Assembly: GCF_019753045.1 (NCBI RefSeq)
Contig: NZ_JAIELN010000002.1
Location: 248,001 to 312,000, forward strand
Direction of reading: 5' to 3'
Source of the DNA: Hyphomicrobium sp.
Lineage (GTDB): Bacteria; Pseudomonadota; Alphaproteobacteria; Rhizobiales; Hyphomicrobiaceae
DNA: 64,000 bases
Of the stretch, positions 29,150 through 57,398 are shown piece by piece. The notes beneath the pieces are model-generated. The model ran no database searches. It had not been told where the DNA came from and worked only from the letters and a program-made list of their open reading frames with translations. How positions within the stretch are numbered: the stretch's first letter is position 1; the number at the start of each line of letters is the position of its first letter. Position numbers and translations under genes: made by a program.

Positions 29150-29809
29150 TTATTGCGGGTTCACAGCAGGACCTACTTCGGAAGTCGTCGGCGGTGCAAC
29201 CGCAGGGGCTACGCTCTGCGATCCTTGCGCAGGCGCGACGGCCGGTGCTGCTATCGCTGGCGTCGGGGGAGCCGGTGTCGGCGAGGCAGGTTGTGCCGTG
29301 TCAACCGGCGTTGTCGGAGCCGAAGCCGCCGTTGTGCCGGGTCCCGGGGGTTGAGCCGCCGCTGGCGCTGGCAAAGGAAGCTGTGCGCCTGGCGGTGGAT
29401 TTGATACCAGCGCCACCTTGGTGAACCCCGCGGAGGTGATCTTACCCATCACCTCGAGAATGACTCGATATGGAAGGTCCTTGTCTGCACGGACGTGGAT
29501 GCGCTGATCGAGCCCGTTCTCGGCTTGGTTCAACAGGACAGCAAGCAATTGATCCGGCTGAACTTCAGTCGAGCCGACGAAGTACTTGCCTGCGGCATCG
29601 AGCGAGACCGCTATGGGCGGTTTTTGATCGTTGAGCGGTTTCGCCTGCGTCTTGGGCAGATCGACGGGAATGCCACTCGTCATCAAAGGGGCGGCGACCA
29701 TGAAGACGATAAGAAGAACTAGCATGACGTCGACCAGCGGCGTCACGTTGATGTCGCTCATCGGCGGGTCGTCGAAATCTTCGTCATGCTTACGCAGCGC
29801 GACGGCCAT
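29150..29809 (-). CDS. exbD: ExbD-type biopolymer transport protein with Pro/Ala-rich tail
   Basis: 219 residues from MAVALRK (an ATG nine bases earlier is possible). ExbD hallmarks: MSDINVTPLVDVMLVLLIVFMVAAPLM, one transmembrane helix with the conserved aspartate, then a periplasmic domain VDLPKTQAKPL ... IHVRADKDLPYRVILEVMGKITSAGFTKVALVS. After about residue 140 comes an unusual ~80-residue tail rich in proline and alanine, absent from typical ~140-residue ExbD. Forms the proton-driven motor with ExbB to energise TonB. Its start overlaps the exbB end by 20 bp. Confidence 0.92.
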   Translation of the reverse strand: MAVALRKHDEDFDDPPMSDINVTPLVDVMLVLLIVFMVAAPLMTSGIPVDLPKTQAKPLNDQKPPIAVSLDAAGKYFVGSTEVQPDQLLAVLLNQAENGLDQRIHVRADKDLPYRVILEVMGKITSAGFTKVALVSNPPPGAQLPLPAPAAAQPPGPGTTAASAPTTPVDTAQPASPTPAPPTPAIAAPAVAPAQGSQSVAPAVAPPTTSEVGPAVNPQ

Positions 29810-30533
29810 GGACTTCACCTTTCGAAAGTTGCCGCGATAGTTCGACCTCGTAAATGCCGACGAGGTTCGTCAGGCGCTTGCCGTAGCGGCTGATCCGGCC
29901 GCTGATGTTATTGTAGAAGAGCACCGCCGGAATGGCCGCGACGAGACCGAGGGCCGTCGCAAAAAGTGCTTCCGCGATGCCCGGCGCAACGACGGAGAGA
30001 CTTGTGTTGTTCGTCGCGGCGATGCCCTGGAAGCTATTCATGATGCCCCAAACGGTGCCGAAAAGCCCGACGAACGGCGCGACCGAACCGATGCTCGCCA
30101 ACGACTGCAGGCCGGCTCGCAAATTATCGAGCGCGCTGGTAGACGAAAGTTGCGCGACCCGGTGGATACGCTCCAACAAACTTTCCTGCTGACCCGAGCT
30201 GTATCGCAGCTCCGCTGATCGCGTGTTCTCTTCCACCATGGCCTGGTAGACGTATCGCAGCGGATCGTCTGCCTTCACTTTCAAAAACGCTTCCGAAAGC
30301 TCTGACGTCTGAATGCCGTGCCTCAAACTTTTGAGAAGGCGGTTGGCCCTTCTGTCGACCAGAGTGAGCCGCAGGGACTTCGCAACAATGACTCCCCAAC
30401 TCCATGCAGACGCAAGGATCAGCAGCGCCATCACGACTTTTACGATAATGTCCGCTTGATTGAAGAGCTCCACCGGAGTGGCTATGTGAACCGGGACGCC
30501 GGTACCCGGACTCGAAAGGGCAGGATCAGACAT
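29790..30533 (-). CDS. exbB: ExbB/TolQ-type proton channel protein
   Basis: 247 residues from MSDPALS, preceded by GAGAGGAAC. Three membrane segments: IIVKVVMALLILASAWSWGVIVA, then SVAPFVGLFGTVWGIMNSFQGIA and LFATALGLVAAIPAVLFYNN, which are the ExbB family signature. Builds the inner-membrane motor with ExbD. Order on the minus strand is tonB-exbB-exbD with spacing of 33 bp and then overlap, so one operon. The nearest client is the TonB-dependent receptor at 43505-45901, with the monooxygenase/ABC genes between. Confidence 0.93.
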   Translation of the reverse strand: MSDPALSSPGTGVPVHIATPVELFNQADIIVKVVMALLILASAWSWGVIVAKSLRLTLVDRRANRLLKSLRHGIQTSELSEAFLKVKADDPLRYVYQAMVEENTRSAELRYSSGQQESLLERIHRVAQLSSTSALDNLRAGLQSLASIGSVAPFVGLFGTVWGIMNSFQGIAATNNTSLSVVAPGIAEALFATALGLVAAIPAVLFYNNISGRISRYGKRLTNLVGIYEVELSRQLSKGEVHGRRAA

Positions 30534-30566
30534 TGTTCCTCTCAACTAATGTTGGTGTTCAAGAGA

Positions 30567-31379
30567 TCACCGGACGCGGTAGACGATGCCGCCGGCAATC
30601 CGATAGGAGCTTGCTCCGAGATTGGGCGGTGGCGGAAAGGGAGCCGATTGGGCGAGAGCTTGCGCGACGGCATGGTCAACGGCGGCAACGCCCGACGGCG
30701 AAATTGACTTCGAAATGAGTTGGCCTGACGCGCCGATGACGATGACATACCCGACCCGCACCGATTTTTGCGTCAGAGCACCACGTGGAAAGGTGTTGGA
30801 CGCGATCCGATTGATGCGCTGAAAGACCTTGTTGGCATAATCGCTCGGAACGGCTCCCGCGGTGCGCGTCGCGCTGGGCTTTCCTTTCGGCTTTTCAGCT
30901 GACCGTTTTGGCGCGGGCTTCTCTTTCACCGGTTCTGGCTTCGGTTCAGGAGGCTTCTCTAGCGCAGGCGGCGGCGGTGGTGGGGGCGGCTGCACCGGCA
31001 AAGCTTCCGCTGCTTCTTCAGGAACTGGCGGCGGCGGTTCGGGTGCAGGCTCAGGAGGCTTCTCGGCTACCGGCGGCGGCGGTTCAGGGTGTTGCTCCGG
31101 AACGGGCGGCGGCTCCGGCGGGGTCTCAGGTTGCGGTGCTTGCTCTTCGCTCTGCTCGAACGCCATCTCGACCGGCGCCTCGAGGGTCATCGGCGCGGGG
31201 CTGAAATCGACGGTCAGGAGTACGGCCAGCACGACAAAGTATGCCCCCATACCTGCCGAAATAAACAAATAGGGCGGCTTGCTCGAAGACATTCGAACAA
31301 GCGTGTCGGCGAAGAATGTTGTGTCATGCTCCTGCGGTGGCGGCGCAGGAATAGAATAGGCTTGCGAAGCTCTAGGCAT
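30567..31379 (-). CDS. tonB: TonB energy-transducing protein
   Basis: 270 residues. One transmembrane anchor (about residues 37-59, LFISAGMGAYFVVLAVLLTV), a long periplasmic linker of PE/PP/PK repeats (about 70-165, including runs of up to eight prolines), and a C-terminal TonB-like domain YANKVFQRINRIASNTFPRGALTQKSVRVGYVIVI ... AAVDHAVAQALAQSAPFPPPP. Spans the periplasm and transmits ExbBD energy to an outer-membrane receptor. Start codon choice is uncertain; MSSSKPPY at residue 30 is an alternative. First gene of tonB-exbB-exbD. Confidence 0.9.
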   Translation of the reverse strand: MPRASQAYSIPAPPPQEHDTTFFADTLVRMSSSKPPYLFISAGMGAYFVVLAVLLTVDFSPAPMTLEAPVEMAFEQSEEQAPQPETPPEPPPVPEQHPEPPPPVAEKPPEPAPEPPPPVPEEAAEALPVQPPPPPPPPALEKPPEPKPEPVKEKPAPKRSAEKPKGKPSATRTAGAVPSDYANKVFQRINRIASNTFPRGALTQKSVRVGYVIVIGASGQLISKSISPSGVAAVDHAVAQALAQSAPFPPPPNLGASSYRIAGGIVYRVR

Positions 31380-31551
31380 TGATCTGCCCCCAACCAGTGG
31401 CTTGGGTAGACGTCAATCTTGCCATCAGCGTTCTATGACGACTGTTGGTCATCGAAATTTCACGCCCTATCCATCTCAACATGTCTCCTCGGCTCTCATC
31501 GCTATTGGAATGTTCCATGCGCTTTCGCGCATAAGTTGGCTTCTTCCAATT

Positions 31552-32268
31552 TCAGACTGGCTCAGAATAAGCTCCCTGGCTTGCCTTCTTCCCCGACAAG
31601 CGCAGCGCGTCGAGGATCGCCGGCGTCTCGGTTCTGATGATCCAGTCTGGCGAGATATCGGCGAAACGGACGACGCGGTGCTGATCGATGATGATGACGG
31701 CCGGTTTGGGCAACTCCCAGGATGATGTTCCGTTCAGCGCCTGACTCGTGCCGCCGTTCGCCTCAGACGACTTACGGGATGCATCATTGAAGACATAGGT
31801 GATACCCAGAGCGCGCGAGAGACCAAGGTTCTCGTCGGAGGCGATCGGGAAAGGAAGCTGATGCCGCTTTACGATCTCGTGCAGCAGCGTAATCGGCTGC
31901 GGGGAAATGCCGATGAGCGGGACTCGCGCTGCCGAGAGGGCGGGCCACAGCGTGTCACGATAATAAGGAAGTGCGATGTTGCAGGCTGGGCATCCCGCGA
32001 AGCGGAAGAAAATCAAGACGGCCGGGCCGGCGGTCGCGACAGCATCGAGAGAGATCGGTTTTCCGTCCGTGCGGACCAGTGTCACGTCGGGGAGGGTGTC
32101 GCCTAAGCCGACGAACGGGTGCTTGCTATGCTCGCGCACAAGCTCTGCGCGCTGATTATCGTAGACGGCCAAAGCGTCTGGCGTCCATGTCCGCCGGCGC
32201 TCAGAGTCGAGTTCTTGGAAACGCGAGTTCAGAGAAAAGGCAATATTTCGATGCTGATCAGATGACAT
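31552..32268 (-). CDS. Peroxiredoxin-like (AhpC/TSA, thioredoxin-fold) protein
   Basis: 238 residues from MSSDQHRN. Thioredoxin-fold domain from about residue 55: LGDTLPDVTLVRTDGKPISLDAVATAGPAVLIFFRFAGCPACNIALPYY, with a CPAC motif at the helix start, then PLIGISPQ and PAVIIIDQHRVVRFADISPDW. The family reduces peroxides or acts as thiol oxidoreductase. In a sulfur-compound cluster it may protect against peroxide from flavin monooxygenases, or reduce disulfides. Same strand as its neighbours, 139 bp before the LysR stop and 172 bp after the tonB start, so possibly its own unit. Confidence 0.8.
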   Translation of the reverse strand: MSSDQHRNIAFSLNSRFQELDSERRRTWTPDALAVYDNQRAELVREHSKHPFVGLGDTLPDVTLVRTDGKPISLDAVATAGPAVLIFFRFAGCPACNIALPYYRDTLWPALSAARVPLIGISPQPITLLHEIVKRHQLPFPIASDENLGLSRALGITYVFNDASRKSSEANGGTSQALNGTSSWELPKPAVIIIDQHRVVRFADISPDWIIRTETPAILDALRLSGKKASQGAYSEPV

Positions 32269-32407
32269 ACCGTCCGTCCTGCAAGTCAATATCGGTTACT
32301 GGGAACTTTCCGCGTAACCCGCTTATTCGACGTCGGAGAGCAGTATGCCTTCAGTCGTGACAGAGAGACCAAGGAATTAGTCTCAATGGAAATCTTGTGA
32401 AAACTCA

Positions 32408-33316
32408 TCAATCGGCGGCGGCCTGCTCGAGCAACTCGGCCAGATCATGTGCGGTATCGGAAAGTCCGTTGCGACGCACGAGCACTGTTTCGACTTCCGG
32501 CAGTGGCGGTAGCACGCCTGCCGGTAGCAGAGGCAAGCCTTCAGAGGTCGCGAACCGCCGCGTCCGGCAGCTCACGCCGAGGCCGCCGCGCACTCCTGCG
32601 CCCAGAGCGGGCAGATTGGGCGTTTCCAAAACAATTCGATAGGCGCGCTTGCTTTCGCCAAGCGTATGCAATGCCGTGTCGCGAAAACGGCACGGAGATT
32701 CCAGGAGTACGAGCGGAAGCTCTTCCAAATCGGCGCTATCGGGTTGGCCGAGCCAGACCATCCGGTCATGGCCGACCGTTTTCAGGCTCGATCCGACACG
32801 ATCGCCATGCTGGCCGAGGCAGAGGACGAGGTCGAGACGGGACCGATCGAACATGTCGAGCAACTCGACCGATCCACCGACACGGATGATGATGCGCGCG
32901 CGCGGATGCCCGAAATGGAAGCGGCTCAGGACATCCGTAAGGATCGTGTCGGCAAAGTCCTGCACCAAGCCGAGTGTGATCGGCTCCGGATCGAAATCCT
33001 GACCAAGTGCCGATACGATTCGGTCGTTCAGCGCCAGGAGCTGGCGCGCATGTCCGACTAACTCCTCGCCTGCGGGAGTGAGCGAAAGCTTGCGCCCGTC
33101 ACGTCGGAACAGCTTTTGTTGCAGCACATCCTCCAGCCGTTTCATCTGAAGGCTGAGTGCTGACTGCGTCAGCAGAATGGTTTCGGTAGCCTGAGCCAGG
33201 GAGCCCGCTTCGACGATTGCAATGAAGGAGCGGAGCAAATCGATCGGCATGTTCGTCGCCATCAGGCGAGGCGGCCGTGTTAAGGCAGGTCGTTGAAGTG
33301 TGGAGACTACGGCCAT
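32408..33316 (-). CDS. LysR-family transcriptional regulator
   Basis: 302 residues. N-terminal winged HTH PIDLLRSFIAIVEAGSLAQATETILLTQSALSLQMKRLEDVLQQKLFRRDGRKLSLTPAGEELV. The C-terminal effector-binding domain has LGLVQDF near residue 115 and LPALGAGVRGGLGVSCRTR. The likely start is MPIDLLRSF (33250) or MATNMPID; the longer frame adds ~20 residues without a clear site. Sits downstream of the monooxygenase/ABC operon on the same strand. Candidate regulator of the sulfur cluster, in the manner of CysB/Cbl in other bacteria, though it is not a close CysB by sight. Confidence 0.88.
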   Translation of the reverse strand: MAVVSTLQRPALTRPPRLMATNMPIDLLRSFIAIVEAGSLAQATETILLTQSALSLQMKRLEDVLQQKLFRRDGRKLSLTPAGEELVGHARQLLALNDRIVSALGQDFDPEPITLGLVQDFADTILTDVLSRFHFGHPRARIIIRVGGSVELLDMFDRSRLDLVLCLGQHGDRVGSSLKTVGHDRMVWLGQPDSADLEELPLVLLESPCRFRDTALHTLGESKRAYRIVLETPNLPALGAGVRGGLGVSCRTRRFATSEGLPLLPAGVLPPLPEVETVLVRRNGLSDTAHDLAELLEQAAAD

Positions 33317-33733: not shown

Positions 33734-36037
33734 TCACACTTCTTTGACAATGATTTCCGGTAACGTGAAAGCAGACACAGGCGGAACAGACCCTGTAAAT
33801 CGTCGGACTTCAATCAGGCAGGTCAGTGCACTGCAACCTTGCGACAAGGAGGAAGTGCCGCGATCCAGCGTCAATGTGTTGGGATTGCCGTGCTTCTCGA
33901 CATCATCGCCGGGATCGAACCAGGCACCTGTCGAAAGCCGCACCACTCTAGGCATAATAGCTTCGCTCAGAATCGCGCCGGCCAGACAGCGTCCACGATC
34001 GTTGAATAGTTCAACCACGTCGCCCTGCGCGATCCCGCGCTGGGCGGCATCCTTTGGATTGAGGTAGACGGGTTCGCGTCCCGAAATCTTGCCGGCGCGG
34101 CTAGAGGGACTTTGATCGAGCTGACTGTGCAGCCGGCGAACCGGCTGATCGGAGAGGAGATGCAGGGGATATCGCTTCGACTCGGCGTGCCCCAGCCATT
34201 CGAATGGTTCTCGCCAAACTGGGTGACCCGGACAATCGTCAAGCTCGAACGATGCGATGCGCTCGGAGAATATTTCGATCTTGCCCGAGGGCGTGGGCAG
34301 CGGACAGGATACGGGATCATGGCGAAAATCGGCGTGCATGACATGGGGCCTGTCATGCCGCGAGTAATCAATGAATCCGGTTTCCCAGAATTCCTCGAAA
34401 TCGGGGAGTTTGATGCCGGCTTCGGCAACTTGCATGCGGTTTTTCTCGTAAAGGCGCCGGAGCCAGCCGAAGACATCAAGCCCCTCTGTATAATCCGGTT
34501 CCACGCCGAGTCGACGGGCAAGCCCGGAGAATATCGCGAAGTCATCTCGCGCGTTGCCATATGGCGCAACCGCGCGCCGCATCGCGATCAGATATCCCTC
34601 GCGCGTGGAAAAGGCGAGGTCCTCGCGCTCGAGGCTGATCGTTGCCGGCAATACTATGTCCGCGTGACGTGCGACGGGGTTCCAATATTGCTCGTGAACG
34701 ATAATCGTTTCCGGCTTTTCCCAGGCCAGTCGTAGACGGTTCAGATCCTGATGGTGATGGAAGGGATTGCCGCCCGCCCAATGCACCAGCCGAATATCAG
34801 GATAACGGTGAAGGCCACCGTTGTAACGAAACGTCTCGCCCGGACGAAGCAGCATATCGGAAAAACGCGCAACCGGAATAAAGGCCGCAACCGCATTCCT
34901 GCCCTGGGGCAGGGTCGGGCCGGGGACGCGCGGATGGCTGCTTCCCATCGTATTCATCGCGCCGTAGCCAAGCCCATAGCCGCCACCCGGCAGCCCAATC
35001 TGTCCCAGCATTGCCGCCAACGTCACGAGCATCCAGAAAGGTTGCTCGCCATGCGCTGCGCGTTGAAGCGCCCAGGCAATATTGAGCATCGTGCGCTTGC
35101 CAAGCATCTCGCGGGCGAGTCGTTCTATTCGTGCCGCGGATACGCCGGTGATACCCGCAGCCCAGGCCGGGGTTTTGGCTATTCCGTCGGCCTCGCCCGT
35201 CAAATAGGGCAGGAAGCGGTCAAAGCCGACCGTGTGAGTCGCAAGGAAGCTACGATCAAAACGTGAGTCGTTCAGCACAACATGCGCTAAAGCGAGCAGC
35301 ATCGCCGTATCAGTATTGGGCTGAATTGGAATCCATTCGTCGGAAGCGCCGTCTTCGAGGCTGTCGTTGACAGGACTGATGTTGACGATCCGAGCGCCGG
35401 CTTCCCGCATCCGTCGCAGGCCGTCACGCGCCCGATGCCGTCCGGCGCCACCTGGCGAGACGCGCGTGTTCTTGAGAGGCATCCCGCCAAAACTCACGAA
35501 TAATTCGCAATGCGCCGCCAACACGTCCCAAGACGTATGAGACACATTGGATTCGTCCATTCCGGCTGCAATGTGGGGCATGAGCACGCGCGCCGCGCCA
35601 AGACTGTAGGAGTCGACGCTGTGCACGTAGCCGCCGACATTATTATAAAACCGATGCAAGTGACTCTGCGCGTGATGAAAGCGGCCGGCGCTCGACCATC
35701 CGTATGATCCGCCAAAGATCGCCTCATTGCCGTGGGCCGCGCGGATTCTTGCAATCTCGCCGGCCGCGAGATCGAGCGCGGTCTCCCAATCGACCTCTAC
35801 AAAGCGCTCTCTTCCTCGTTTCGATGGGTTTGTCCCTGCTCCCGCTTCGAGCCAGCTTTCGCGGATCGCCGGTTGCGCAATCCGCAAGGCGGTGACGGAG
35901 GGGTCGAGTTGGTCTAGCCCAATCGGATTGGGATCGGGGTCGAGCGAGAACGATCGAAGCTTCGGCCGGCCTTCGGCCGGGTCCGGGTCGATTTCATAAA
36001 TGCCCCAATGTGCTGCTGAATATCTATGCTCAGTCAT
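33734..36037 (-). CDS. Molybdopterin oxidoreductase, biotin/DMSO sulfoxide reductase (BisC-like) type
   Basis: 767 residues from MTEHRYS. DMSO-reductase family lacking the N-terminal Fe-S cysteine motif, as in BisC/TorA/DorA. GGSYGWSSAGRFHH (about 109-122) contains the serine that ligates molybdenum in this branch. Further family segments are GGMPLKNTRVSPGGAG, MLGQIGLPGGGYGLGYG, ILPATISLEREDLAFSTREG and a C-terminal molydopterin-binding barrel. No Tat or Sec signal is visible, so it is cytoplasmic like BisC. Probably reduces a sulfoxide (or N-oxide). Last gene of the receptor-ABC-RraA-monooxygenase operon, 18 bp after its neighbour. Confidence 0.85.
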   Translation of the reverse strand: MTEHRYSAAHWGIYEIDPDPAEGRPKLRSFSLDPDPNPIGLDQLDPSVTALRIAQPAIRESWLEAGAGTNPSKRGRERFVEVDWETALDLAAGEIARIRAAHGNEAIFGGSYGWSSAGRFHHAQSHLHRFYNNVGGYVHSVDSYSLGAARVLMPHIAAGMDESNVSHTSWDVLAAHCELFVSFGGMPLKNTRVSPGGAGRHRARDGLRRMREAGARIVNISPVNDSLEDGASDEWIPIQPNTDTAMLLALAHVVLNDSRFDRSFLATHTVGFDRFLPYLTGEADGIAKTPAWAAGITGVSAARIERLAREMLGKRTMLNIAWALQRAAHGEQPFWMLVTLAAMLGQIGLPGGGYGLGYGAMNTMGSSHPRVPGPTLPQGRNAVAAFIPVARFSDMLLRPGETFRYNGGLHRYPDIRLVHWAGGNPFHHHQDLNRLRLAWEKPETIIVHEQYWNPVARHADIVLPATISLEREDLAFSTREGYLIAMRRAVAPYGNARDDFAIFSGLARRLGVEPDYTEGLDVFGWLRRLYEKNRMQVAEAGIKLPDFEEFWETGFIDYSRHDRPHVMHADFRHDPVSCPLPTPSGKIEIFSERIASFELDDCPGHPVWREPFEWLGHAESKRYPLHLLSDQPVRRLHSQLDQSPSSRAGKISGREPVYLNPKDAAQRGIAQGDVVELFNDRGRCLAGAILSEAIMPRVVRLSTGAWFDPGDDVEKHGNPNTLTLDRGTSSLSQGCSALTCLIEVRRFTGSVPPVSAFTLPEIIVKEV

Positions 36038-36055
36038 GGGTTCGACGCACAAAGC

Positions 36056-37336
36056 TCACAGCGCGAGCCTATCCCGCAAATGGACTGGAGCAGCGTCCGC
36101 TTCGGGAAGAAGTCCACGCTTTCGCAGCAATGGCGTCAGAAATTCGAGAAAATCGTCGTAAATCCCCGGCGAACTCGACGAGCTAATGTTGAACCCGTCA
36201 AGTCCCGTCTGCTCGGATATTTCAACCAGCCTGTCCACGACCTCTTCCGGCGTACCGACGACCGTGAATGGAGACTGCTGATTGCGAACGTGATCGATAT
36301 AATCCTGAATGGTGACGTCGTAGCGACCGTTTACTGAGCGCAAGGGCCTCGTCGTTCCATAGGTTTTCAACTCCGAGAGAAGGGTGTCACGCGTATATTG
36401 CCGGATGTCGATGCCGTTCCACGCGAGCACGCTCTCATCCGTTTGAAATTGTGCCTGGCGATCTATTTTCCGTTGCGCCTCCTCGCGTGTCCTCGCGACA
36501 CCGATGGTGACACCCGTAAATATGCGCGGACGACTCCGGCCGGCCGCTGCGGCCAAAAGCTCGAGCTTTTTGATATTGGCGGCCAGCCCTTCCAAGTTTC
36601 CAGCATTCGTATAGAGCGCCTCCGAGTGACGAATGGCGAAATCAAAGCCCGCTTCGGACGCCGTCGCTTGGAAGTAGACGGGTTTGCCTTGCGGCGACGG
36701 TTCGCTCAGGTGAGGTCCCCGGACGTTGAAATACTGACCGCGGTGATTGATCGGATGCACCTTGGCCGGATCGACATAAATTCCCGCATCTTTATCGCGC
36801 ACGAGAGCCCCTGGCTCCCACGACTCCAGCCAAAGCTTTTCCAGCACCTCAATATATTCGTTGGCCCGCTTATAACGTTCGCCATGCGAAATCTGTTCGT
36901 TGAGCCCGAAATTCGCGGCGGCACTGTCAAGATAGGACGTAACGATATTCCAGCCGATCCGGCCTCCGGTGAAATGATCGAGCGTGCTGAAGCGCCGCGC
37001 CAATAGAAAAGCCGGCTCATAAGTGCTCGACGCGGTGACGACAAAACCGAGCTTTTCAGTTACCGAAGCCAAAGCCGAGACGAGAACGAATGGATCGCCC
37101 AAAGGAAAGACATGCGCATCCCGCACTGACAATTCGGGTCCAGTTTCCCGCGTCTCGAATACGCCGAGTATGTCGGCGAAAAAAATTGCATCGAACCCCG
37201 CAGCCTCCAGCAGTTGGGCCTGCTTCTGCCAATAACGTAGATTCGTCGGATCGCGGACGTTGTCGGGATCGCGCCATGCCCCGCGATCTCCGGGACTCAG
37301 CATTTGAAAAGCCGTAAAATGCAGCGCTTTGCTCAT
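36056..37336 (-). CDS. LLM flavin-dependent monooxygenase, NtaA/SnaA/DszA family
   Basis: 426 residues. Diagnostic segments of the nitrilotriacetate/pristinamycin/dibenzothiophene-sulfone monooxygenase branch: GAWRDPDNVRD, AQLLEAAGFDAIFFAD, FVLVSALASVTEKLGFVVTASSTYEPAFLLARRFSTLDHFTGGRIGWNIVTSY and HPINHRGQYFNVRGP. Uses FMNH2 from a separate reductase (candidate at 56823) to oxygenate a substrate, often cleaving C-S or C-N bonds. Lies 25 bp downstream of the RraA-like gene and 18 bp upstream of the molybdoenzyme, so co-transcribed. Substrate unknown; sulfur context suggests a sulfone or sulfonate. Confidence 0.88.
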   Translation of the reverse strand: MSKALHFTAFQMLSPGDRGAWRDPDNVRDPTNLRYWQKQAQLLEAAGFDAIFFADILGVFETRETGPELSVRDAHVFPLGDPFVLVSALASVTEKLGFVVTASSTYEPAFLLARRFSTLDHFTGGRIGWNIVTSYLDSAAANFGLNEQISHGERYKRANEYIEVLEKLWLESWEPGALVRDKDAGIYVDPAKVHPINHRGQYFNVRGPHLSEPSPQGKPVYFQATASEAGFDFAIRHSEALYTNAGNLEGLAANIKKLELLAAAAGRSRPRIFTGVTIGVARTREEAQRKIDRQAQFQTDESVLAWNGIDIRQYTRDTLLSELKTYGTTRPLRSVNGRYDVTIQDYIDHVRNQQSPFTVVGTPEEVVDRLVEISEQTGLDGFNISSSSSPGIYDDFLEFLTPLLRKRGLLPEADAAPVHLRDRLAL

Positions 37337-38009: not shown

Positions 38010-38065
38010 TTCAAGCTCCCTAAGGGTGGACATTCTGGTCGTGCGGTCAAGGACGTTTCGATTTC

Positions 38066-50740: not shown

Positions 50741-50857
50741 CACCACTGCCTTTGAATAACACTGCTTGTTTGCTAGCAGATTTCAAGCTGCTCGCGCGGT
50801 TGTCTTCGATGCCCAGTCAGATGCGTCGACGCACTGAATTCTCGCAATCAAGGTCGC

Positions 50858-52030
50858 TTAGACGCCTAGTGCGGCCCGCCCCGAGGCAGACAGCACCACA
50901 TCCTGCTGCGGCGTGTGAATGCGCCCGCAAAGCACGTCGCGATAGTGCCGTTCCAGCGGATTGCTCTGGGTGAGTGCAGGATTGCCAATGGCGGCCACGC
51001 CTTTGCTTATTGCGGCTATGGCGTTTTCCGTCACCACATGCTTGACGAGCCCTGCATCGGTCGTCGGCTTCTCGCCCGCTTCCTCACGCGAGACGGCATG
51101 CTCGATGAGGGACCGGTTCACTAGCAAAAGCGCCTCTATTTCTCCGAGCAGCGCTTGAAAGCGCGGCTGCGTTGCCAGGGACTTGCCGAGATTGGAAGGG
51201 ATACGGTCCTGCAGAAAGGAGATCAGCCAGGTGCGGGCGGATCGCGCGATGCCGTCATAAAGTGCCGCGACGGCGACCGCATGCCAGCCCGCAAGGGCTT
51301 CCTCCGCTGCTTCGGCTGGCGGCTGCAAATTTACAAGATAGCGCTCGGGCAAAGCCACGTTCTCGAAAATGATCGTGTCGCTGCCGGTCGCACGCATTCC
51401 AAGATGAAACCAGCTTTTCTCGATACGCGTTCCTGGCAGATCGAGCGGCACGATGACCTGGCCGACACGCGGCTCGTCTTCGTCCGTGCGCGTCCAGACG
51501 ACGCCCCAACTCAACGCGCTTGAGCCCGTCGAGAAGATTTTACGTCCGTTGAGGAGCCAGATGTCGCCTTCACGGCGAACCGTCGTTGCCGGCAAACCGC
51601 CCCGCGCGGGTGTCCCGAGTTCCGGCTCGACACGCAAAGCATTGATCAATGCGCCGTCGCGTACGATACTTGAAAGAACCTCGTCTTTGACGACTTCCGG
51701 CCAGATCGTCGAGTGGCCGATCGCGCCGCATTGAAGATATTGCATGATGAGGATCAAGGCCGTCGAGGGATCTCCTTCGCCGATCCGGCCGATGATCTCG
51801 ACAACCTGTCGCAATCCGATTCCATGGCCGCCATAAGCGCGGGGAACGGTTGCAGCCAACAGTCCGGCAGTCTTAAGGTCAGCGATATTGTCGAACGCGA
51901 TCTCTCCAATGCGGTCGTAGTGCGGAGCGCGATCCGCAAAAACAGTCACGATGCGATCGAGCGTCTCGGTGAGATTCAAGTTTGTCGTCAAAGATTCGAT
52001 CCCAACTTTTTTCGCAGCGAGACGGCTCAT
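50858..52030 (-). CDS. Acyl-CoA dehydrogenase family monooxygenase (SfnC/DszC-like)
   Basis: 390 residues. Acyl-CoA dehydrogenase fold: LKTAGLLAATVPRAYGGHGIGLRQVVEIIGRIGEGDPSTALILIMQY, DIWLLNGRKIFSTGSSALSW, GMRATGSDTIIFENVALPERYLV, RDVLCGRIHTPQQD. The catalytic glutamate of true acyl-CoA dehydrogenases is not apparent near the C-terminus, and relatives next to LLM enzymes (SfnC, DszC) are FMNH2-dependent monooxygenases of sulfur compounds. Starts only 8 bp after the NtaA-type gene. Probably acts with the two LLM enzymes and the FMN reductase; substrate unknown. Confidence 0.85.
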   Translation of the reverse strand: MSRLAAKKVGIESLTTNLNLTETLDRIVTVFADRAPHYDRIGEIAFDNIADLKTAGLLAATVPRAYGGHGIGLRQVVEIIGRIGEGDPSTALILIMQYLQCGAIGHSTIWPEVVKDEVLSSIVRDGALINALRVEPELGTPARGGLPATTVRREGDIWLLNGRKIFSTGSSALSWGVVWTRTDEDEPRVGQVIVPLDLPGTRIEKSWFHLGMRATGSDTIIFENVALPERYLVNLQPPAEAAEEALAGWHAVAVAALYDGIARSARTWLISFLQDRIPSNLGKSLATQPRFQALLGEIEALLLVNRSLIEHAVSREEAGEKPTTDAGLVKHVVTENAIAAISKGVAAIGNPALTQSNPLERHYRDVLCGRIHTPQQDVVLSASGRAALGV

Positions 52031-52038
52031 GGCGCGGA

Positions 52039-53376
52039 TCAGGCGCCGCTGCGGGCAAAGCGTTGTGCCCTATAGCGGTTGACGGGAATGTCCAGCCCGA
52101 GATTTTCACGCAATGTGTGGTGCGTGTAATCATTGCGAAACAGACCTCGCTCCTGCAAGCGCGGAACGACATGACGGACAAAAATCTCGAGTTGCCCTGG
52201 AAGAGTTTCGAAGAAAATGAAACCATCTGCGGCTTCGTTCTCAAACCAATATTTCAGCCGGTCCACAATCTCGTCGGGCGCCCCCACGAATTCGCTCCGC
52301 GGCGTTGCGATTTGCTGGGCAATCTGGCGCAAGGTCAGATTACCGGCACGCACAGCTTTCAAGATGCGTTGTGAATTGCTTTGGCTCGAATCACGACCCA
52401 GGACTTCGACGTCGGGAAAGGGACCGTCGAGGTCATACTGAGAAAAATCGTGGTCGCTGAACATCCGAGAAATCATGCCGAGACCCGTTTTCAACGAGCC
52501 AAGCGAAACCAACTCCTGGTATCGCGCTTCGGCATCCTGCGGCGTAAGTCCGATGACGGGATTGATACCAGGGAATACGTAAGGCAGCTTCTCACCACGT
52601 CCGGCATTGCGGGCCCGTTGCTTGACGTCGCGATAAAATTCCTGCGCCTCTTCGAGATTTTGCGGGATAGTAAAAATGACTTCCGCGCGCCGGGCGGCGA
52701 AATTCCGGCCGGTGTCCGAGGCGCCGGCCTGGAAGATCACCGGCTGACCCTGGGGGGAACGGCTGATGTTAAGCGGCCCCCGGACGTGAAAGTATTGACC
52801 CCTGTAATCGAGCCGATGCAGTTTGGCAGGATCGACGAAAGTGCCGCTTTGCTTATCGCCGACAAGCGCATCGTCTTCCCAACTGTCCCAAAGTCCCTGG
52901 ACGACGTCTAGATATTCCGCAGCGATGCGATAGCGTTCGGCATGTTCTGGATGTTTGTCGCGGCTGAAGTTTGCCGCCGTCTCGCCGAGCCAGGATGTAA
53001 CGACGTTCCAGCCCGTGCGGCCACTGCTGATATGATCGAGCGAGGCAAATTGCCGGGCCACGTTGAAAGGCTCTGAGTAGCTCACTGTCACAGTGCCGAC
53101 GAGTCCGATGTAGCGGGTCGCTCCCGCAAGCGCCGACAAAATGGTGATCGGCTCGAAGCGGCTCAGATAATGTGGACTGGATTTTTCGTTGATCGAGAGT
53201 GAATCGGCAACAAAGACGAAATCGAACTTACCTTCTTCGGCGAGCCGCGTCTGATGAAGGTAAATGGGATAACTGGTGCTTGCATGAACGTCACGGTCGG
53301 GATGGCGCCAATCGTCCCAGGTACGGCCGACACCATGAAGGATATGGCCGAGTTTCATTTTGCGAGAGAAGGACAT
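52039..53376 (-). CDS. LLM flavin-dependent monooxygenase, NtaA/SnaA/DszA family (second)
   Basis: 445 residues. Same branch as the enzyme at 36056: KLGHILHGVGRTWDDWRHPD, YIGLVGTVTVSYSEPFNVARQFASLDHISSGRTGWNVVTSWLGETAANF, HRLDYRGQYFHVRGPLNISRSPQGQPVIFQAGAS, and C-terminal FVGAPDEIVDRLKYWFENEAADGF. FMNH2 and O2-dependent oxidation of a bulky or sulfur-bearing substrate is expected. Placed between class II aldolase (59 bp) and the SfnC/DszC-like gene (8 bp), a pairing that mirrors dsz and sfn type operons. Start could also be the ATG six codons later. Confidence 0.88.
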   Translation of the reverse strand: MSFSRKMKLGHILHGVGRTWDDWRHPDRDVHASTSYPIYLHQTRLAEEGKFDFVFVADSLSINEKSSPHYLSRFEPITILSALAGATRYIGLVGTVTVSYSEPFNVARQFASLDHISSGRTGWNVVTSWLGETAANFSRDKHPEHAERYRIAAEYLDVVQGLWDSWEDDALVGDKQSGTFVDPAKLHRLDYRGQYFHVRGPLNISRSPQGQPVIFQAGASDTGRNFAARRAEVIFTIPQNLEEAQEFYRDVKQRARNAGRGEKLPYVFPGINPVIGLTPQDAEARYQELVSLGSLKTGLGMISRMFSDHDFSQYDLDGPFPDVEVLGRDSSQSNSQRILKAVRAGNLTLRQIAQQIATPRSEFVGAPDEIVDRLKYWFENEAADGFIFFETLPGQLEIFVRHVVPRLQERGLFRNDYTHHTLRENLGLDIPVNRYRAQRFARSGA

Positions 53377-53435: not shown

Positions 53436-54230
53436 TTATCGGTCGAAACCAGGCGAGTGCCGTGTTGCCTTGCGTAAGGAAGCTTCCCAGGCGAGTTCAT
53501 AGGCGCTCTTGCTACCTTCGACAGGCTTGCGGGTGCGATTAATCTGTTGACGCACTTCCACTTGCGCTGTCTCTGGAGCAATCAGAACTTTATCGCGTCC
53601 AATCGATAGCGTCCGTACTTGCGCGGTGCACGCAGATTCGAGCGAATAGATTCGGGTCCACGCGGCGCCGGGCGATGACCCAAGCGCGAGCGTGCCGTGA
53701 TTGCGCAAAAGAAAATAGTTATTGTCGCCGAGATCGGCGATCAGCCGCGCCCGTTCGTCAAGGTTCAACGCTATGCCTTCGTAATCGTGATAGGCGAGCG
53801 AGGGAATGATAGCGAGCGCGCGCTGGTTCAGTGGCAGCAAACCGTCGGCCTGAGCGGAAACGGCGACTCCATCGGCGGAATGAAAATGCGCGATATAAAG
53901 CGCATCTGGCCGAGCGGCGTGAATCGCGGAATGAATCACGAAGCCGGCATAATTGATGCCGTAATCGTTTTCCTCGACGAGATTGCCGTCAAGATCGATC
54001 TTCACCAGGCTGGAGGCGGTGATTTCCTCGAACATCAGGCCATAAGGATTGATGATGAAATGTTCCTCCTTGCCCGGCACGCGCGCGGAAATGTGAGTGA
54101 AGATAAGGTCGTCCCACTGGTAAATCGCTGCAAGCCGATAGAATGCTGCGAGATTAACCCGGACAGACCATTCTTCCGGCGAGATATTCCGCGGGATGCC
54201 TTGAGGGCTAGGGAAGGCAAGGGCTGTCAT
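53436..54230 (-). CDS. Class II aldolase/adducin-family protein
   Basis: 264 residues from ATG 54230, fixed by CGGAGG seven bases upstream; the open frame reaches 54257. Class II aldolase fold: FYRLAAIYQWDDLIFTHISARVPG, EHFIINPYGLMFEEITASSLVKIDLDGN, zinc ligands in AHFHSADGVAVSA and LRNHGTLALG. Members cleave or dehydrate phosphorylated sugars or hydroxyacids using zinc. First gene of the leftward operon aldolase-LLM-SfnC-FAD-ferredoxin, divergent from the SsuD-like operon. Could process the carbon part left after sulfur removal. Confidence 0.88.
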   Translation of the reverse strand: MTALAFPSPQGIPRNISPEEWSVRVNLAAFYRLAAIYQWDDLIFTHISARVPGKEEHFIINPYGLMFEEITASSLVKIDLDGNLVEENDYGINYAGFVIHSAIHAARPDALYIAHFHSADGVAVSAQADGLLPLNQRALAIIPSLAYHDYEGIALNLDERARLIADLGDNNYFLLRNHGTLALGSSPGAAWTRIYSLESACTAQVRTLSIGRDKVLIAPETAQVEVRQQINRTRKPVEGSKSAYELAWEASLRKATRHSPGFDR

Positions 54231-54622
54231 CACAACCTCCGTTACTGAACAAGTCATGTTCTAAGCGCCGGCGGCGGTACGTCAGAATGAAAAAATGAAA
54301 TGTGTGCTTCAACGATCTCTTGATCGCGTGCAGACCCCACAGTTCTCCGTCATGGAAGAGAGTCTCTCCGGCGCTGAGGAACTCTCCCAAAATGCATGGG
54401 AGCCATGCTGCGCATCATGGACGCGGGGAGGACGGCGAATGGGGGAGCGTGCCGCCGGGAATATTGGACAGCCCTCCGGTCAGGGCAGGGGGGAGAAACC
54501 AGGCCCCCCCCGTGAGTTTCTTCAATGCACGGCTTGAAGGATATGAAATGTTTTCCAGGCGTCCCTGCCGATAGAGTTCTTGTGGCAGCCGTTGCCGCAC
54601 AAAAGTTCCCCGGGGGTGTCTC
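54231..54622. promoter_or_regulatory. Divergent control region with shared 15-mer and possible Met-Lys-Cys leader
   Basis: About 390 bp between the class II aldolase and the SsuD-like gene. AAAAAATGAAATGTG at 54290-54304 is identical to 46368-46382. From its ATG (54295) a short open frame MKCVLQRSLDRV runs rightward. Near 54470-54515 lies a G/C-rich stretch (GGCAGGGGGGAGAAACCAGG, CCCCCCC) that could form a hairpin; TGAAATGT recurs at 54545. No gene is called in it. Confidence 0.4.
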
Positions 54623-55732
54623 ATGTCTGTGCAATTCATTGGAATGGTCGTCGCGCAGGAAACTTCGGAGAGCATCGCGCCGAAGGGACCGGCTCTCGAC
54701 AAGAAATATCTTCGTGCCCTCGTGAAGGCGCACGATGCCAGCGGCTTCGACCGGATCCTGATCGCTCATTCGAGCGCCTCTGTCGATGGCTTGCAAATCG
54801 CGGCGGACATCATCCATCAATCCGATCGCATTGCGGTCCTGCTCGCCAACAGGCCGGGCTTCATCTCTCCGACATACGCGGCGCGGGCGTTCGCGACGCT
54901 GGATCAGTTCAGTGACGGCCGACTCGCTATTCACATCATCAGCGGCGGAGACGATCAGGAGCAGCAGCGCGACGGCGATTATCTCGATCACGATCAGCGC
55001 TATGCGCGAAGCGAGGAATATATCCAGATCCTCAAGGAGATCTGGACCAACGATCAGCCGATCGATCACGAAGGCACCTATTACAAGTTCAAAGGTGCGT
55101 TCTCATCGATCAAGCCGACGCAGAAGCCGCATATTCCGATCTATTTCGGCGGCGCTTCTGACGTGGCGATCAAGGTGGCAGGGCGCTTTGCCGATGTTTA
55201 TGCCCTATGGGGTGAATCGCTCGCCCAGGTGCGTGAGACCATCGCGCGTGTCCGCGCCGCCGCCGCGCCCTTCGGCCGCGCCAATCAGATCAAATTCAGT
55301 CTGTCCCTACGTCCCGTTCTCGGCGCGACCGAAGCCAAGGCCTGGGAAAAGGCGGACGAGATTTTGACCAAGGCCAAAGCCGCGGTCGCGCAAAATTCCT
55401 TTTATCAACGCAGCAATCCGCCGGTAAATGTCGGCTCGCTACGGCTGCTTGAAACCGCTGCGACCGGCCGTGTCGTCGATAAGCGACTGTGGACTGAAAT
55501 CGCCGCGCTGACCGGTGCTAAGGGCAATTCCACGTCGCTGGTCGGCACGCCCGAACAGGTCGCTGAATCACTGCTCGAATATTATGATCTCGGCATCACG
55601 ACCTTTCTGATCCGCGGCTTCAATCCGCTTGAGGATACGATCGAATATGGTCGCGAGCTTATTCCGCTTGTCCGCAAGGCCGTGGCCGAACGTGAGGCCG
55701 CTGCGCCCAGAGTGGAAGCCAAGGCCGGATGA
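54623..55732 (+). CDS. LLM flavin-dependent alkanesulfonate monooxygenase-like protein (SsuD type)
   Basis: 369 residues. SsuD/alkanesulfonate monooxygenase style: VSFI-like start MSVQFIGMVVAQETS, YLRALVKAHDASGFDRILIAHSSASVDG, YAARAFATLDQFSDGRLAIHIISGGDDQEQQRDGDYLDHDQRYARSEEYIQILKEIW, PIYFGGASDVAIKVAGRFADVYALWGESLAQV, and LVGTPEQVAESLLEYYDLGITTFLIRGFNP. Cleaves sulfonates to aldehyde and sulfite with FMNH2. The stop overlaps the hydroxyacid dehydrogenase start by four bases, and an FMN reductase follows, so the operon resembles a small ssu/msu unit. Sulfite could enter assimilation. Confidence 0.85.
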   Translation: MSVQFIGMVVAQETSESIAPKGPALDKKYLRALVKAHDASGFDRILIAHSSASVDGLQIAADIIHQSDRIAVLLANRPGFISPTYAARAFATLDQFSDGRLAIHIISGGDDQEQQRDGDYLDHDQRYARSEEYIQILKEIWTNDQPIDHEGTYYKFKGAFSSIKPTQKPHIPIYFGGASDVAIKVAGRFADVYALWGESLAQVRETIARVRAAAAPFGRANQIKFSLSLRPVLGATEAKAWEKADEILTKAKAAVAQNSFYQRSNPPVNVGSLRLLETAATGRVVDKRLWTEIAALTGAKGNSTSLVGTPEQVAESLLEYYDLGITTFLIRGFNPLEDTIEYGRELIPLVRKAVAEREAAAPRVEAKAG

Positions 55733-56709
55733 ACCAAATTATCGATGCCAAGGTGCGGCCTCTCGTTATCGCGAGCCAATTGGGCAAAGCCTTCAACGAG
55801 AGGATTGCCCAACGTGTCCCGGGGCTTGCGTTTGTCGATCTGGCGCGGGGAGACTTCGATATCGCGGCGAGCGATGCTGAAGTGCTCCTCGCCATGCCAT
55901 TGCGTGCGGCGGAAGTCCGGGCATTGAGTGAGACACCTGCGGCATGGCCTGGAGCCATCCGCTGGGTTCAATTGTTCTCGGCGGGCTCTGACGGCTATCC
56001 CCGCTGGGTATTCGACGCACCGCTCGTCACTTGCGCTCGAGGTCCCTCGGCGCAGCCGATCGCCGAGTATGTGTTCGCCACGATTTTAAACGCTGCCCGC
56101 CGGCTGCCCGAGCTCTGGGCGCATAGTCCCGAAGAATGGGAAAGAAATAAATTGCGGACGCGCGATGTCGCCGGCGCCACGCTCGGCCTGATCGGTTTCG
56201 GCGCGATCGGGCGGAGGATCGCCGAACTCGCCCTGCCCTTTGGCTTTCGCGTCGTGGCACACCGACGCACCGACGCGCCACTTGGGATCGACGGTGTCGA
56301 ACGCGCGCCTGACATCGGCGCGCTGTTGGCGCAGTCCGATTATGCCGTTCTCGCGCTTCCCGCGACACCGCAAACCTATCGCATCATCGATAAAGACGTT
56401 CTGGCGCAAGCCAAGCGCGGGCTGCACTTCATCAATGTCGCGCGCGGCTCGCTTATCGATCAAGAGGCTCTGCTCGATGCCTTGAATCGTGAGGTGATCG
56501 GTCTCGCGAGCCTGGATGTCACAGACCCGGAGCCGCTGCCGGAGGGGCATCCCTTCTACACGCATCCTCGCGTGCAGCTCTCGCCGCATATTTCCATGAT
56601 AACTGAGGGAGCTTTCGACAAGCTCATCGACAAGCTCGTCGACAATATCAATCGCTATCGCGAACGACGGCCGTTGCCCGACATTGTCGATCCACATCGG
56701 GGCTATTGA
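55729..56709 (+). CDS. D-2-hydroxyacid dehydrogenase family protein
   Basis: 326 residues. NAD(P)-binding domain VAGATLGLIGFGAIGRRIAELALPFGFRVVAHRR, catalytic Arg in FINVARGSLID, Glu in LDVTDPEPLPEGHPF and His in LSPHIS, all as in GhrA/SerA-type enzymes. Interconverts a 2-hydroxyacid and a 2-oxoacid. Coupled to the SsuD-like gene by ATGA overlap. In a sulfonate context a sulfolactate/sulfopyruvate-like or glyoxylate-type substrate is conceivable, but nothing in the sequence fixes it. Confidence 0.9.
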   Translation: MNQIIDAKVRPLVIASQLGKAFNERIAQRVPGLAFVDLARGDFDIAASDAEVLLAMPLRAAEVRALSETPAAWPGAIRWVQLFSAGSDGYPRWVFDAPLVTCARGPSAQPIAEYVFATILNAARRLPELWAHSPEEWERNKLRTRDVAGATLGLIGFGAIGRRIAELALPFGFRVVAHRRTDAPLGIDGVERAPDIGALLAQSDYAVLALPATPQTYRIIDKDVLAQAKRGLHFINVARGSLIDQEALLDALNREVIGLASLDVTDPEPLPEGHPFYTHPRVQLSPHISMITEGAFDKLIDKLVDNINRYRERRPLPDIVDPHRGY

Positions 56710-56822
56710 GTTGGTGTCGGAAGCTCCGGCGCCATCGTCTACCGCGTCCACTGATCGCCAACGTTTCGCTGAATGGAAAGCGCTCTACTCCATTGAGGCG
56801 GCTCCTATCGAGAACCAGAGAC

Positions 56823-57398
56823 ATGTCAGCACTGCCAACAGTTCCGCTTAACGTTGTCGCCGTCAGTGGCAATATGCATCGTCCGTCCAAATCGAGGGCG
56901 CTCGCGGCTCACGTGAGCGAGGCAATCGCTGCGCGTGCGCGAATTGATGTGCGCTCTTTCGACCTCGTCGATGCGGGGCCGGGCTTAGGCGCGTTCGTGC
57001 GAACAGGGCTTTCTCCGGATGCTCGGAAAGTTCTAGAGGCTATCGAAAACGCTGAAGCGCTTATCGTCTCGGCTCCGGTTTACAAGGGCTCGTATCCGGG
57101 GCTGCTCAAGCATCTTTTCGACTTCGTGGACCCGACAGCCCTTGTAGGCAAGCCCGTCCTGCTCGCTGCTGTAGGCGGCGGTTTGCGTCACGCCCTGGTC
57201 ATCGAGCATCAATTGAGGCCGCTGTTTGGATTCTTCTCGGCTTTGACGGTCCCGACTGCCGTTTATGCCGCGGACAGCAATTTTATCGACGGCGTGATCA
57301 TCGATCCCGTCGTGAAAGAGCGGATCGATCTCGCCGTCTCGCAGTTCGTCGCTCTCTTGAAGACAGTCGATCGGAAAGTCGCCGTCGAGTTGGCCTAG
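56823..57398 (+). CDS. NADPH-dependent FMN reductase (SsuE/MsuE-like)
   Basis: 191 residues from ATG 56823; the open frame extends back to 56706 but without family similarity. Flavodoxin-like fold: PLNVVAVSGNMHRPSKSRALAAHV, LIVSAPVYKGSYPGLLKHLFDFVDPTALVGKPVLLAAVGGGLRHALVIEHQLRPLFGFF, typical of SsuE/MsuE. Supplies FMNH2 to the three LLM enzymes and the SfnC-like protein of the cluster; the only such reductase in it. Third gene of the rightward operon, 113 bp after the dehydrogenase. Its 3' end overlaps the run-out of the truncated helicase on the other strand. Confidence 0.88.
   Translation: MSALPTVPLNVVAVSGNMHRPSKSRALAAHVSEAIAARARIDVRSFDLVDAGPGLGAFVRTGLSPDARKVLEAIENAEALIVSAPVYKGSYPGLLKHLFDFVDPTALVGKPVLLAAVGGGLRHALVIEHQLRPLFGFFSALTVPTAVYAADSNFIDGVIIDPVVKERIDLAVSQFVALLKTVDRKVAVELA

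Follow-up and report, generated by a model that had tools for sequence, protein, structure and literature searches.

A probable organosulfur-scavenging gene cluster with its own TonB-dependent receptor in Hyphomicrobium sp.

One question raised by the genome of Hyphomicrobium sp. (NCBI RefSeq assembly GCF_019753045.1) is whether a TonB-dependent outer-membrane receptor encoded among genes for organic sulfur metabolism belongs with them, and what such an arrangement would serve. The window analysed here is a stretch of 64,000 nucleotides (contig NZ_JAIELN010000002.1, positions 248,001 to 312,000), and the cluster in question occupies its positions 29150-57398. All 24 genes of this region were matched to families by profile search (Pfam, NCBIfam). 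An earlier note on the same DNA had read the region as an organosulfur cluster; every gene that it named was recovered by the search at about the expected place, and one for a peroxiredoxin was added. In our view the region is probably a sulfur-starvation scavenging cluster, itself probably gained horizontally, in which organic sulfur would enter through the dedicated receptor, a TonB motor and a Dpp-type importer, and C-S bonds would be cleaved inside the cell. The region is real and conserved in outline, and its coupling to TonB is seen repeatedly; what is new is a run of genes for the receptor, the Dpp importer, an RraA-like protein, a luciferase-like monooxygenase (LLM) and a BisC-type reductase.

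The receptor and the neighbourhoods of its relatives

The receptor gene (43505-45901, minus strand; PF00593 3.3e-35, PF07715 2.9e-08) had a match at 1e-40 in 14 of 385 genomes of the same class, its own included. The best of the others was genome G436 (38-40% receptor identity), where homologues of seven other cluster genes lie within 10 kb of the receptor, namely those for the acyl-CoA-dehydrogenase-like protein, rhodanese, dioxygenase, aldolase, hydroxyacid dehydrogenase, SsuD-like enzyme and LysR, together with two binding proteins of Sphingobium type. In genome G368, two receptors are accompanied by tonB-exbB-exbD (46, 55 and 64% identity across the aligned regions) and by genes for an arylsulfatase, TauD, an NtaA-type enzyme and Ssu-type permeases and ATPase. 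Such clusters were absent from the other class neighbourhoods fetched (L030-L041 and L043), among which L030 and L038 gave Ssu-type importer matches and L043 an arylsulfatase. On plasmids (526 records), an AsfA homologue is encoded no more than 17 kb from each of the three best receptor matches.

A receptor scan of genome contigs returned at least 597 stretches, of which the best 80 loci were kept, several of them with short flanks. For each locus, sulfur-probe matches no farther than 10 kb from the receptor were counted, some of them to the same family. The first nine loci gave 8 (L044), 12 (L045), 10 (L046), 0 (L047), 6 (L048), 12 (L049), 2 (L050), 0 (L051) and 5 (L052) matches. Three or more were present in six of these nine loci, whereas this was the case in one (L102) of the other 71, six of which had at least one match (Fisher p 2e-6 for the cut at three, set after inspection).

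A receptor tree was built from 57 rows: the window, 15 loci (L004-L018), L042, whose receptor is that of L015 again, the three plasmids, and 37 of the best 80 loci (L044-L075 plus L100, L102, L110, L113 and L114, chosen for matches in their neighbourhoods). The rows of L019 and L048 are near copies, and the L019 relative is annotated with siderophore transport. Sulfur labels were set by us; L050 was labelled from its LLM enzymes and importer alone, and no label was given where the receptor neighbourhood had an arylsulfatase alone (L110, L113, L114, L016/L043). The window receptor falls inside a 14-row clade with an SH-aLRT (Shimodaira-Hasegawa-like approximate likelihood ratio test) value of 100, obtained by a quick method with no bootstrap. 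The label is carried by 12 of the 14 clade rows, the window included, versus 3 of the 43 other rows, and two of those three are one G368 receptor. Five label changes are needed on the tree, whereas shuffled labels average 13.4 and none of 500 shuffles reached five.

Much of the cluster is conserved beside these relatives. With the receptor included, homologues of 13 of the 24 cluster genes are grouped within 22 kb in Acetobacter estunensis; the corresponding counts are 11 for Asaia krungthepensis, 9 for Asaia astilbis and 8 for G436. The A. estunensis set includes exbB and exbD, and a tonB stands in the same cluster. The order in A. estunensis (L044) is acyl-CoA-dehydrogenase-like protein, TonB, ExbB, ExbD, ExbD, hydrolase, partial nitroreductase match, AsfA, AsfB, NMT1-type binding protein, receptor, rhodanese, dioxygenase, aldolase, hydroxyacid dehydrogenase, SsuD-like enzyme, LysR, peroxiredoxin, flavin reductase and Ssu-type importer parts. 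All three Acetobacter and Asaia clusters (L044-L046) share with the window the receptor, the acyl-CoA-dehydrogenase-like protein, thiol dioxygenase, rhodanese, aldolase, hydroxyacid dehydrogenase, SsuD-like enzyme and LysR; L044 and L045 also share asfA-asfB and the peroxiredoxin, and L044 tonB-exbB-exbD. They differ in that L044 and L045 have Ssu-type importer parts and that none of the three has a Dpp importer, RraA or BisC match within 10 kb of the receptor. We know of no description of these clusters. Smaller likenesses were seen in Pararhizobium gei (L027), with acyl-CoA-dehydrogenase-like, SsuD-like, YtnJ-like and AsfAB genes and no receptor annotated in the stretch, and in Caballeronia (L023), with a Dpp importer beside an acyl-CoA-dehydrogenase-like protein and an LLM enzyme.

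The co-occurrence proposed as a check in the earlier note was thus found, with asfAB and genes for thiol dioxygenase, rhodanese and SsuD-like enzymes next to the receptor relatives. Since most close relatives lie in sulfur clusters and most of the clade carries the sulfur label, the assignment of the receptor to the sulfur genes, and with it the organosulfur reading, appears well supported by the sequences compared; gene families and the context of the relatives likewise favour organosulfur acquisition with an own receptor and an extra TonB motor. The claim that the combination with TonB is unusual was not supported. Receptor and motor recur in the sulfur clusters of A. estunensis and G368, and a passage of PMC3596284 annotates a TonB receptor in the Pseudomonas sulfate-ester cluster atsACBR-sftR-atsK-sftP; hence the TonB link is not an oddity. 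Nor does this look like a new kind of system, because most close receptor relatives sit in similar sulfur clusters. As described in that passage, the ats/sft cluster resembles the window cluster in serving sulfur scavenging with a LysR regulator, an ATP-binding cassette (ABC) importer and a TonB-dependent receptor; the window cluster differs by having no sulfatase, no tonB-exbBD is named in the passage, and the likeness is one of description, not of SftP sequence. Among the matches listed in the open-access literature, no title or abstract dealt with a TonB receptor for sulfonates or thioethers, and a Novosphingobium comparison treats TonB receptors and ssu genes separately in the part consulted (PMC5443232).

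Two further observations concern the sphingomonad sulfur clusters. Four small exported-looking and two membrane-like proteins recur beside the receptor (L020 19628-23219, L021 23418-26916, L052 4195-8700). Four hypothetical genes of Sphingobium TomTYG65 (L020) were considered as a TonB-ExbBD set and rejected, as their sequences are unlike and the TonB, ExbB and ExbD of the window found no match there at 1e-8; this plasmid is therefore not counted as motor-bearing.

Gene content and predicted sulfur enzymes

The 24 genes fall into five apparent groups. Group A (minus strand, 54257-48738) comprises a class II aldolase, a YtnJ-like LLM, an acyl-CoA-dehydrogenase-fold flavoprotein, AsfA and AsfB; group B (plus, 46373-48675) a thiol dioxygenase and a four-domain rhodanese; group C (minus, 45901-33734) the receptor, DppC, DppD, DppF, a binding protein, DppB, an RraA-like protein, a DmoA/LadA-like LLM and a BisC-type reductase; group D (minus, 33316-29150) LysR, the peroxiredoxin, TonB, ExbB and ExbD; and group E (plus, 54623-57398) an SsuD/MsuD-like LLM, a hydroxyacid dehydrogenase and an MsuE-type flavin mononucleotide (FMN) reductase. 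No sulfatase was present among the profile matches of these genes.

What had been taken for an adenylylsulfate (APS) reductase-like flavoprotein with a ferredoxin consists indeed of a flavoprotein (49133-50746, minus; PF00890, FAD_binding_2, 1.2e-14) and a ferredoxin (48738-49136, minus; PF13237 3.4e-09) with two cysteine motifs of the 4Fe-4S kind; their identity is best read as AsfA/AsfB, the putative arylsulfonate desulfonation pair. The two frames (48738-50746) overlap and match an adjacent pair in Cupriavidus metallidurans CH34 with 45% identity over 523 of 537 amino acids (4e-119) and 45% over 103 of 132, in about 220 kb searched of a 2.58-Mb record without annotation. This pair would be Rmet_4334/5 of PMC2864759, a passage of which describes Cupriavidus AsfA/AsfB as a reductase-ferredoxin that may serve aromatic desulfonation. 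According to a passage of PMC4267179, asfRABC is needed for the use of aromatic sulfonates, and asfA mutants of Pseudomonas putida S-313 cannot use them. The AsfA/AsfB pair, LysR, an FMNH2-dependent monooxygenase with FMN reductase and an ABC importer are common to the asfRABC and ssu cluster (P. putida S-313; Cupriavidus AsfA/AsfB) and the window, which adds the TonB receptor and motor, extra LLM enzymes, the BisC-type reductase, the thiol dioxygenase and the rhodanese, and has a Dpp-type in place of the Ssu-type importer.

The LLM gene at 52039-53376 (minus strand) scored 528.9 bits with the NtaA/DmoA-family model TIGR03860 (cut-off 279.7). Its nearest solved structure is YtnJ/MoxC (1tvl, 5.6e-154), which we take to be CmoJ, followed by an entry titled "nitrilotriacetate monooxygenase" (3sdo, 4e-133), dibenzothiophene desulfurization enzyme A (5tlc, 5.9e-83), dimethyl-sulfide monooxygenase (3.5e-68) and EDTA (ethylenediaminetetraacetate) monooxygenase (5dqp, 7.2e-63). 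It would be the counterpart of CmoJ in the S-alkylcysteine salvage (CmoO/CmoJ) described in a passage of PMC10863075; neither an N-acetyltransferase nor a deacetylase of that pathway is among the profile matches of the window cluster. The SsuD/MsuD-like LLM (54623-55732, plus; PF00296 4e-65) reached 234.1 bits with TIGR03565 (cut-off 518.2), and its nearest solved structures are the alkanesulfonate monooxygenases 7jv3 (1.8e-59) and 1m41 (1e-52). The first of these is presumably MsuD. The MsuE-type FMN reductase (56706-57398, plus, with its true start probably at codon 40, ~56823) passed the cut-off of its model (TIGR03566, 223.7 bits; cut-off 212.5). For the protein formerly called SfnC/DszC-like (50858-52030, minus; PF08028 2.8e-13, 5gj7 5e-57) the acyl-CoA-dehydrogenase fold stands, whereas the likeness to SfnB and DszC is only distant (106.3 bits with a cut-off of 430.9, and 46.7 with a cut-off of 850). 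No SfnC model was among its listed profile matches, and no open-access paper was found for its nearest solved relatives, 5gj7/5z8t.

The thiol dioxygenase (46373-47068, plus, start uncertain; PF05995, CDO_I, 4.2e-07) is nearest to the 3-mercaptopropionate dioxygenase group. It matches 6xb9 (7e-68) and 4qma (3e-65), titled cysteine dioxygenase type I, and 3uss/4tlf (9.3e-63) and 4wvz (1.6e-61), named 3-mercaptopropionate dioxygenase, whereas other cysteine dioxygenase type 1 entries match at 6.7e-06 or worse; 6xb9 is presumably an Mdo. Its motifs HDHRVWG and DYH align with HDHRVWG and DIH, whose histidines we take to be the iron ligands. The rhodanese (47035-48675, plus) has PF00581 in four stretches, and only one of its four domains has a cysteine (NCAGRTRS). 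The same order, a thiol dioxygenase of that group and then a multi-domain rhodanese, is found in Pseudomonas aeruginosa PA2602/PA2603, which we take to be a 3-mercaptopropionate dioxygenase and four-domain rhodanese pair; the window pair lies inside a larger cluster with receptor and importer. A class II aldolase family protein (53436-54257, minus; PF00596 1.4e-42; NF005451 349.1 bits, cut-off 207) and a D-2-hydroxyacid dehydrogenase family protein (55729-56709, plus; PF02826 2.1e-48) complete groups A and E.

The predicted motor of group D (all minus strand) consists of an ExbD/TolR-type protein (29150-29818; PF02472 1.1e-26), an ExbB/TolQ-type proton channel (29790-30545; PF01618 7.5e-34) and, beside them, a TonB-like protein with a proline-rich stretch (30567-31379; PF13103, TonB_2, 2.9e-08). 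The first two score between TolQR and ExbBD and below the cut-offs of both (TolR 126.2 bits, cut-off 127.3; ExbD models 109 and 112.3, cut-offs 152.95 and 216; TolQ 203.4, cut-off 221; ExbB 196.5, cut-off 206.2); a separate TolQ above the cut-off is encoded elsewhere in the same genome. The AhpC/TSA peroxiredoxin (31552-32289; PF00578 7e-19) and the LysR-type regulator (32408-33316; PF00126, PF03466) are 57% and 69% identical to their homologues in the A. estunensis cluster, and the two genes adjoin in relatives too.

The receptor-to-bisC run and the rival explanations

The unusual feature of the region is the tight same-strand run of group C, nine genes from the receptor to bisC with gaps of at most 56 bases. 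Several neighbouring frames overlap, in part through over-long frame starts. After the receptor come the DppC-type permease (42618-43448; PF00528 4.9e-28), the DppD-type (41626-42621) and DppF-type (40659-41762, start uncertain) ATPases, both with PF00005 and PF08352, a family 5 solute-binding protein (SBP_bac_5) with a twin-arginine (Tat)-like signal, SRRTFNLG (39064-40737, true start probably ~40662; PF00496 2.5e-88), and the DppB-type permease (38066-39067; PF00528 3.8e-41). The importer is therefore Dpp-type where an Ssu-type one would be expected of asf/ssu clusters. The RraA-like aldolase/decarboxylase (37362-38222; PF03737 5.5e-26) probably starts at ~38033, because its conserved part, covered by the NCBIfam matches, begins at about residue 80. 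The second NtaA/DmoA-family LLM (36056-37336; TIGR03860 421.0 bits, cut-off 279.7) is nearest to an alkane monooxygenase (3b9n, 2.3e-94), presumably LadA, and to dimethyl-sulfide monooxygenase (6ak1, 1e-92), with EDTA monooxygenase (5dqp) at 9.8e-41. The BisC-type molybdopterin S/N-oxide reductase (33734-36052, likely start 36037; TIGR00509 936.4 bits, cut-off 1017.55) is nearest to dimethyl sulfoxide (DMSO) reductase among solved structures (1dmr, 1e-199). A serine aligns with the DMSO reductase serine that we take to be the Mo ligand. No signal peptide is apparent, and the match starts at residue 12 here and 52 there, so that the N-terminal extension of 1dmr is lacking.

None of the other loci probed combined receptor, Dpp importer, RraA, DmoA/LadA-like enzyme and BisC. 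The DmoA/LadA-like LLM has a match at 1e-90 in two of the 385 class genomes, its own included, and the 12 kb examined around the other (G391, L143) gave no further cluster gene match. Among 13 fetched BisC neighbourhoods (L130-L142), four (L131, L133, L138, L141) have two or more Dpp-type permease/ATPase matches, a weak count since there is no base rate. A second place where the proposed co-occurrence was found is Phenylobacterium sp. Root1290 (L050): hydantoinase, acyl-CoA dehydrogenase, flavin reductase, family 5 binding protein, receptor (27% identity), DppBCDF, a major facilitator superfamily transporter and two LLM-type genes. Hydantoinase/oxoprolinase genes stand near family 5 binding proteins related to that of the window both here and in L024, which may hint at gamma-glutamyl or glutathione-like substrates.

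From families and layout we infer the substrates, the order of steps, a single operon from the receptor to bisC and regulation by LysR as follows. The receptor, energised by TonB-ExbB-ExbD, would take up a scarce or bulky organosulfur compound, which the Tat-exported binding protein and DppBCDF would move across the inner membrane. The BisC-type enzyme would reduce a sulfoxide to the thioether, and the LLM enzymes, fed by the MsuE-type reductase, would cleave thioethers, sulfones or sulfonates; the run would be a route for a thioether or its sulfoxide. DszA, DmoA, SfnG, SsuD/MsuD and YxeK are given as C-S cleaving flavoenzymes in a passage of PMC10863075. Released thiols may pass to sulfinates through the thiol dioxygenase and on to sulfite, AsfA/AsfB may supply electrons for arylsulfonate desulfonation, and the aldolase, RraA-like protein and hydroxyacid dehydrogenase may handle the carbon part. 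The earlier note's full route to sulfite and a carbon skeleton is likewise a prediction, since several of the enzymes score below the cut-offs of the equivalogs for which they are named.

A more specific and less probable proposal, which we put forward tentatively, is that 45901-33734 is a single operon whose products bring an S-oxide of a peptide- or amino-acid-like thioether all the way from the outer membrane to the cytosol, with the TonB receptor, the Tat-exported binding protein and Dpp-type importer, a cytosolic BisC-type reduction of sulfoxide to thioether and an LLM cleaving the thioether. Suitable substrates would be S-alk(en)ylcysteine sulfoxides from plants, or the gamma-glutamyl derivatives of these. 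If so, Acetobacteraceae, sphingomonads and Caulobacteraceae would share a so far undescribed clade of TonB receptors that take up organosulfur compounds, represented here by the window receptor.

Several points weigh against sulfur scavenging by the cluster as a whole. Four of the 12 labelled clade rows are the window and the three plasmids fetched because of AsfA, and without them the label is carried by 8 of 10. Two clade rows, L018 and L047, the latter among the five nearest, show no clear sulfur genes; for L047, where 8 of 10 Pfam-scanned frames gave no match, this rests on the sulfur-probe search because many of those frames are probably wrong. The receptor is at most 40% identical to the relatives found and sits on a long branch. 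The Phenylobacterium locus has LLM genes and a Dpp importer but no asfAB or thiol dioxygenase match, and relatives of the binding protein and importer also occur in other contexts. The names SsuD-like, SfnB-like and DszC-like fail equivalog or subfamily cut-offs, and the BisC and ExbBD names fall below theirs. The 36056-37336 LLM is equally near the alkane and the dimethyl-sulfide enzymes, for which reason its sulfur substrate is not proven, and a passage of PMC13352529 has DmoA oxidising dimethyl sulfide to DMSO, not cleaving it.

An alternative that we consider unlikely is that two unrelated neighbours are present: a conserved asf/thiol-dioxygenase/SsuD cluster owning the receptor and motor, and an inserted peptide importer-RraA-LLM-BisC operon that serves some other end, for instance the import and repair of peptides containing methionine sulfoxide. 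It agrees with the A. estunensis stretch, which has an Ssu-type importer and no Dpp or BisC match, with G436, where bisC (contig C40) and the receptor (C34) lie apart, and with L133, where BisC and a Dpp-type importer occur without asf matches. However, the receptor gene is the first of the tight run that also holds the importer and bisC, Azospirillum has asfAB, a family 5 binding protein (44%) and bisC (54%) within 10 kb, and the Phenylobacterium receptor beside its Dpp importer and LLM enzymes is of the same clade. The TonB receptor annotated near the Azospirillum asfAB/bisC genes gave no match to the window receptor.

Least probable is an aminopolycarboxylate or metal-chelate system, in which a metal complex would enter through the receptor and the dipeptide/nickel-type importer and its chelator be degraded by NtaA-type monooxygenases. 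In its favour, iron complexes are the most frequent cargo of TonB receptors, both LLM enzymes exceed the NtaA/DmoA family cut-off, the binding protein matches the NikA model (155.2 bits, cut-off 393) and 3sdo is the second-best match of the 52039-53376 enzyme. This reading is weakened because EDTA monooxygenase is a more distant match of the two enzymes than YtnJ (52039-53376) or the alkane and dimethyl-sulfide enzymes (36056-37336), because AsfAB, the thiol dioxygenase, the rhodanese and the MsuE-type reductase have no evident role in it, and sulfur clusters surround most close receptor relatives.

Distribution, flanks and significance

A receptor match at 1e-60 was present in one of 103 family genomes, and AsfA at 1e-50 in five of them, within its own genus (22 genomes) only here; this distribution suggests that the sulfur-scavenging cluster was gained horizontally. 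A close BisC occurs in one of the 22 genus genomes, two others having one at 32-33% identity, and BisC is common across the class (78 of 385 genomes at 1e-200). A terminase-type gene (27193-28716) adjoins the cluster, and a large serine recombinase with resolvase and recombinase domains (39-1838) lies 27 kb away. Distribution and mobile-type genes fit horizontal gain and give no date. The G+C content of the cluster (58.5%) does not differ from that of the remaining window (58.1%); the whole window holds no tRNA and gave no Rfam match at the gathering score.

Other features of the flanks are noted here. A methyltransferase with a ParB-type N-terminus and the terminase RNaseH-like gene (25567-28716) are perhaps a prophage remnant adjoining the cluster, and a UvrD-type helicase, an OLD-like TOPRIM protein and a PIN-like protein below the PIN cut-off (57298-60528) possibly form a defence locus. 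Just upstream of the window, at 228-248 kb of the contig (L001), are MetQ-/MetN-like genes (below cut-offs), two SfnB, one SfnG and one SsuD above cut-offs, and a glutamine-synthetase-like gene, so that sulfur genes flank both sides of the mostly non-sulfur positions 1-29 kb; this second scavenging set for sulfur is less private, since SfnB at 1e-80 is found in 7 of the 22 genus genomes, its own included. Genes at 4679-10416 encode an aldehyde dehydrogenase of the methylmalonate-semialdehyde dehydrogenase type, the omega-aminotransferase AptA, alanine dehydrogenase and a MocR-type regulator, perhaps for the use of beta-alanine or a taurine-like amine; taurine dissimilation was considered for 4.7-10.4 kb and not retained, as the NCBIfam names for the first three make beta-alanine use as likely. 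A further LLM-family gene (16122-17603, no NCBIfam match at 1e-20) adjoins a short-chain dehydrogenase gene (17591-18394), and a protein with glycine-rich and RHS repeats is encoded at 20933-23119.

More than 95% of soil sulfur is organic, according to a passage of PMC4267179. The organosulfur-linked receptor clade offers a concrete set of receptors for the testing of sulfur uptake, and would change the annotation of such receptors in soil and plant-associated bacteria.

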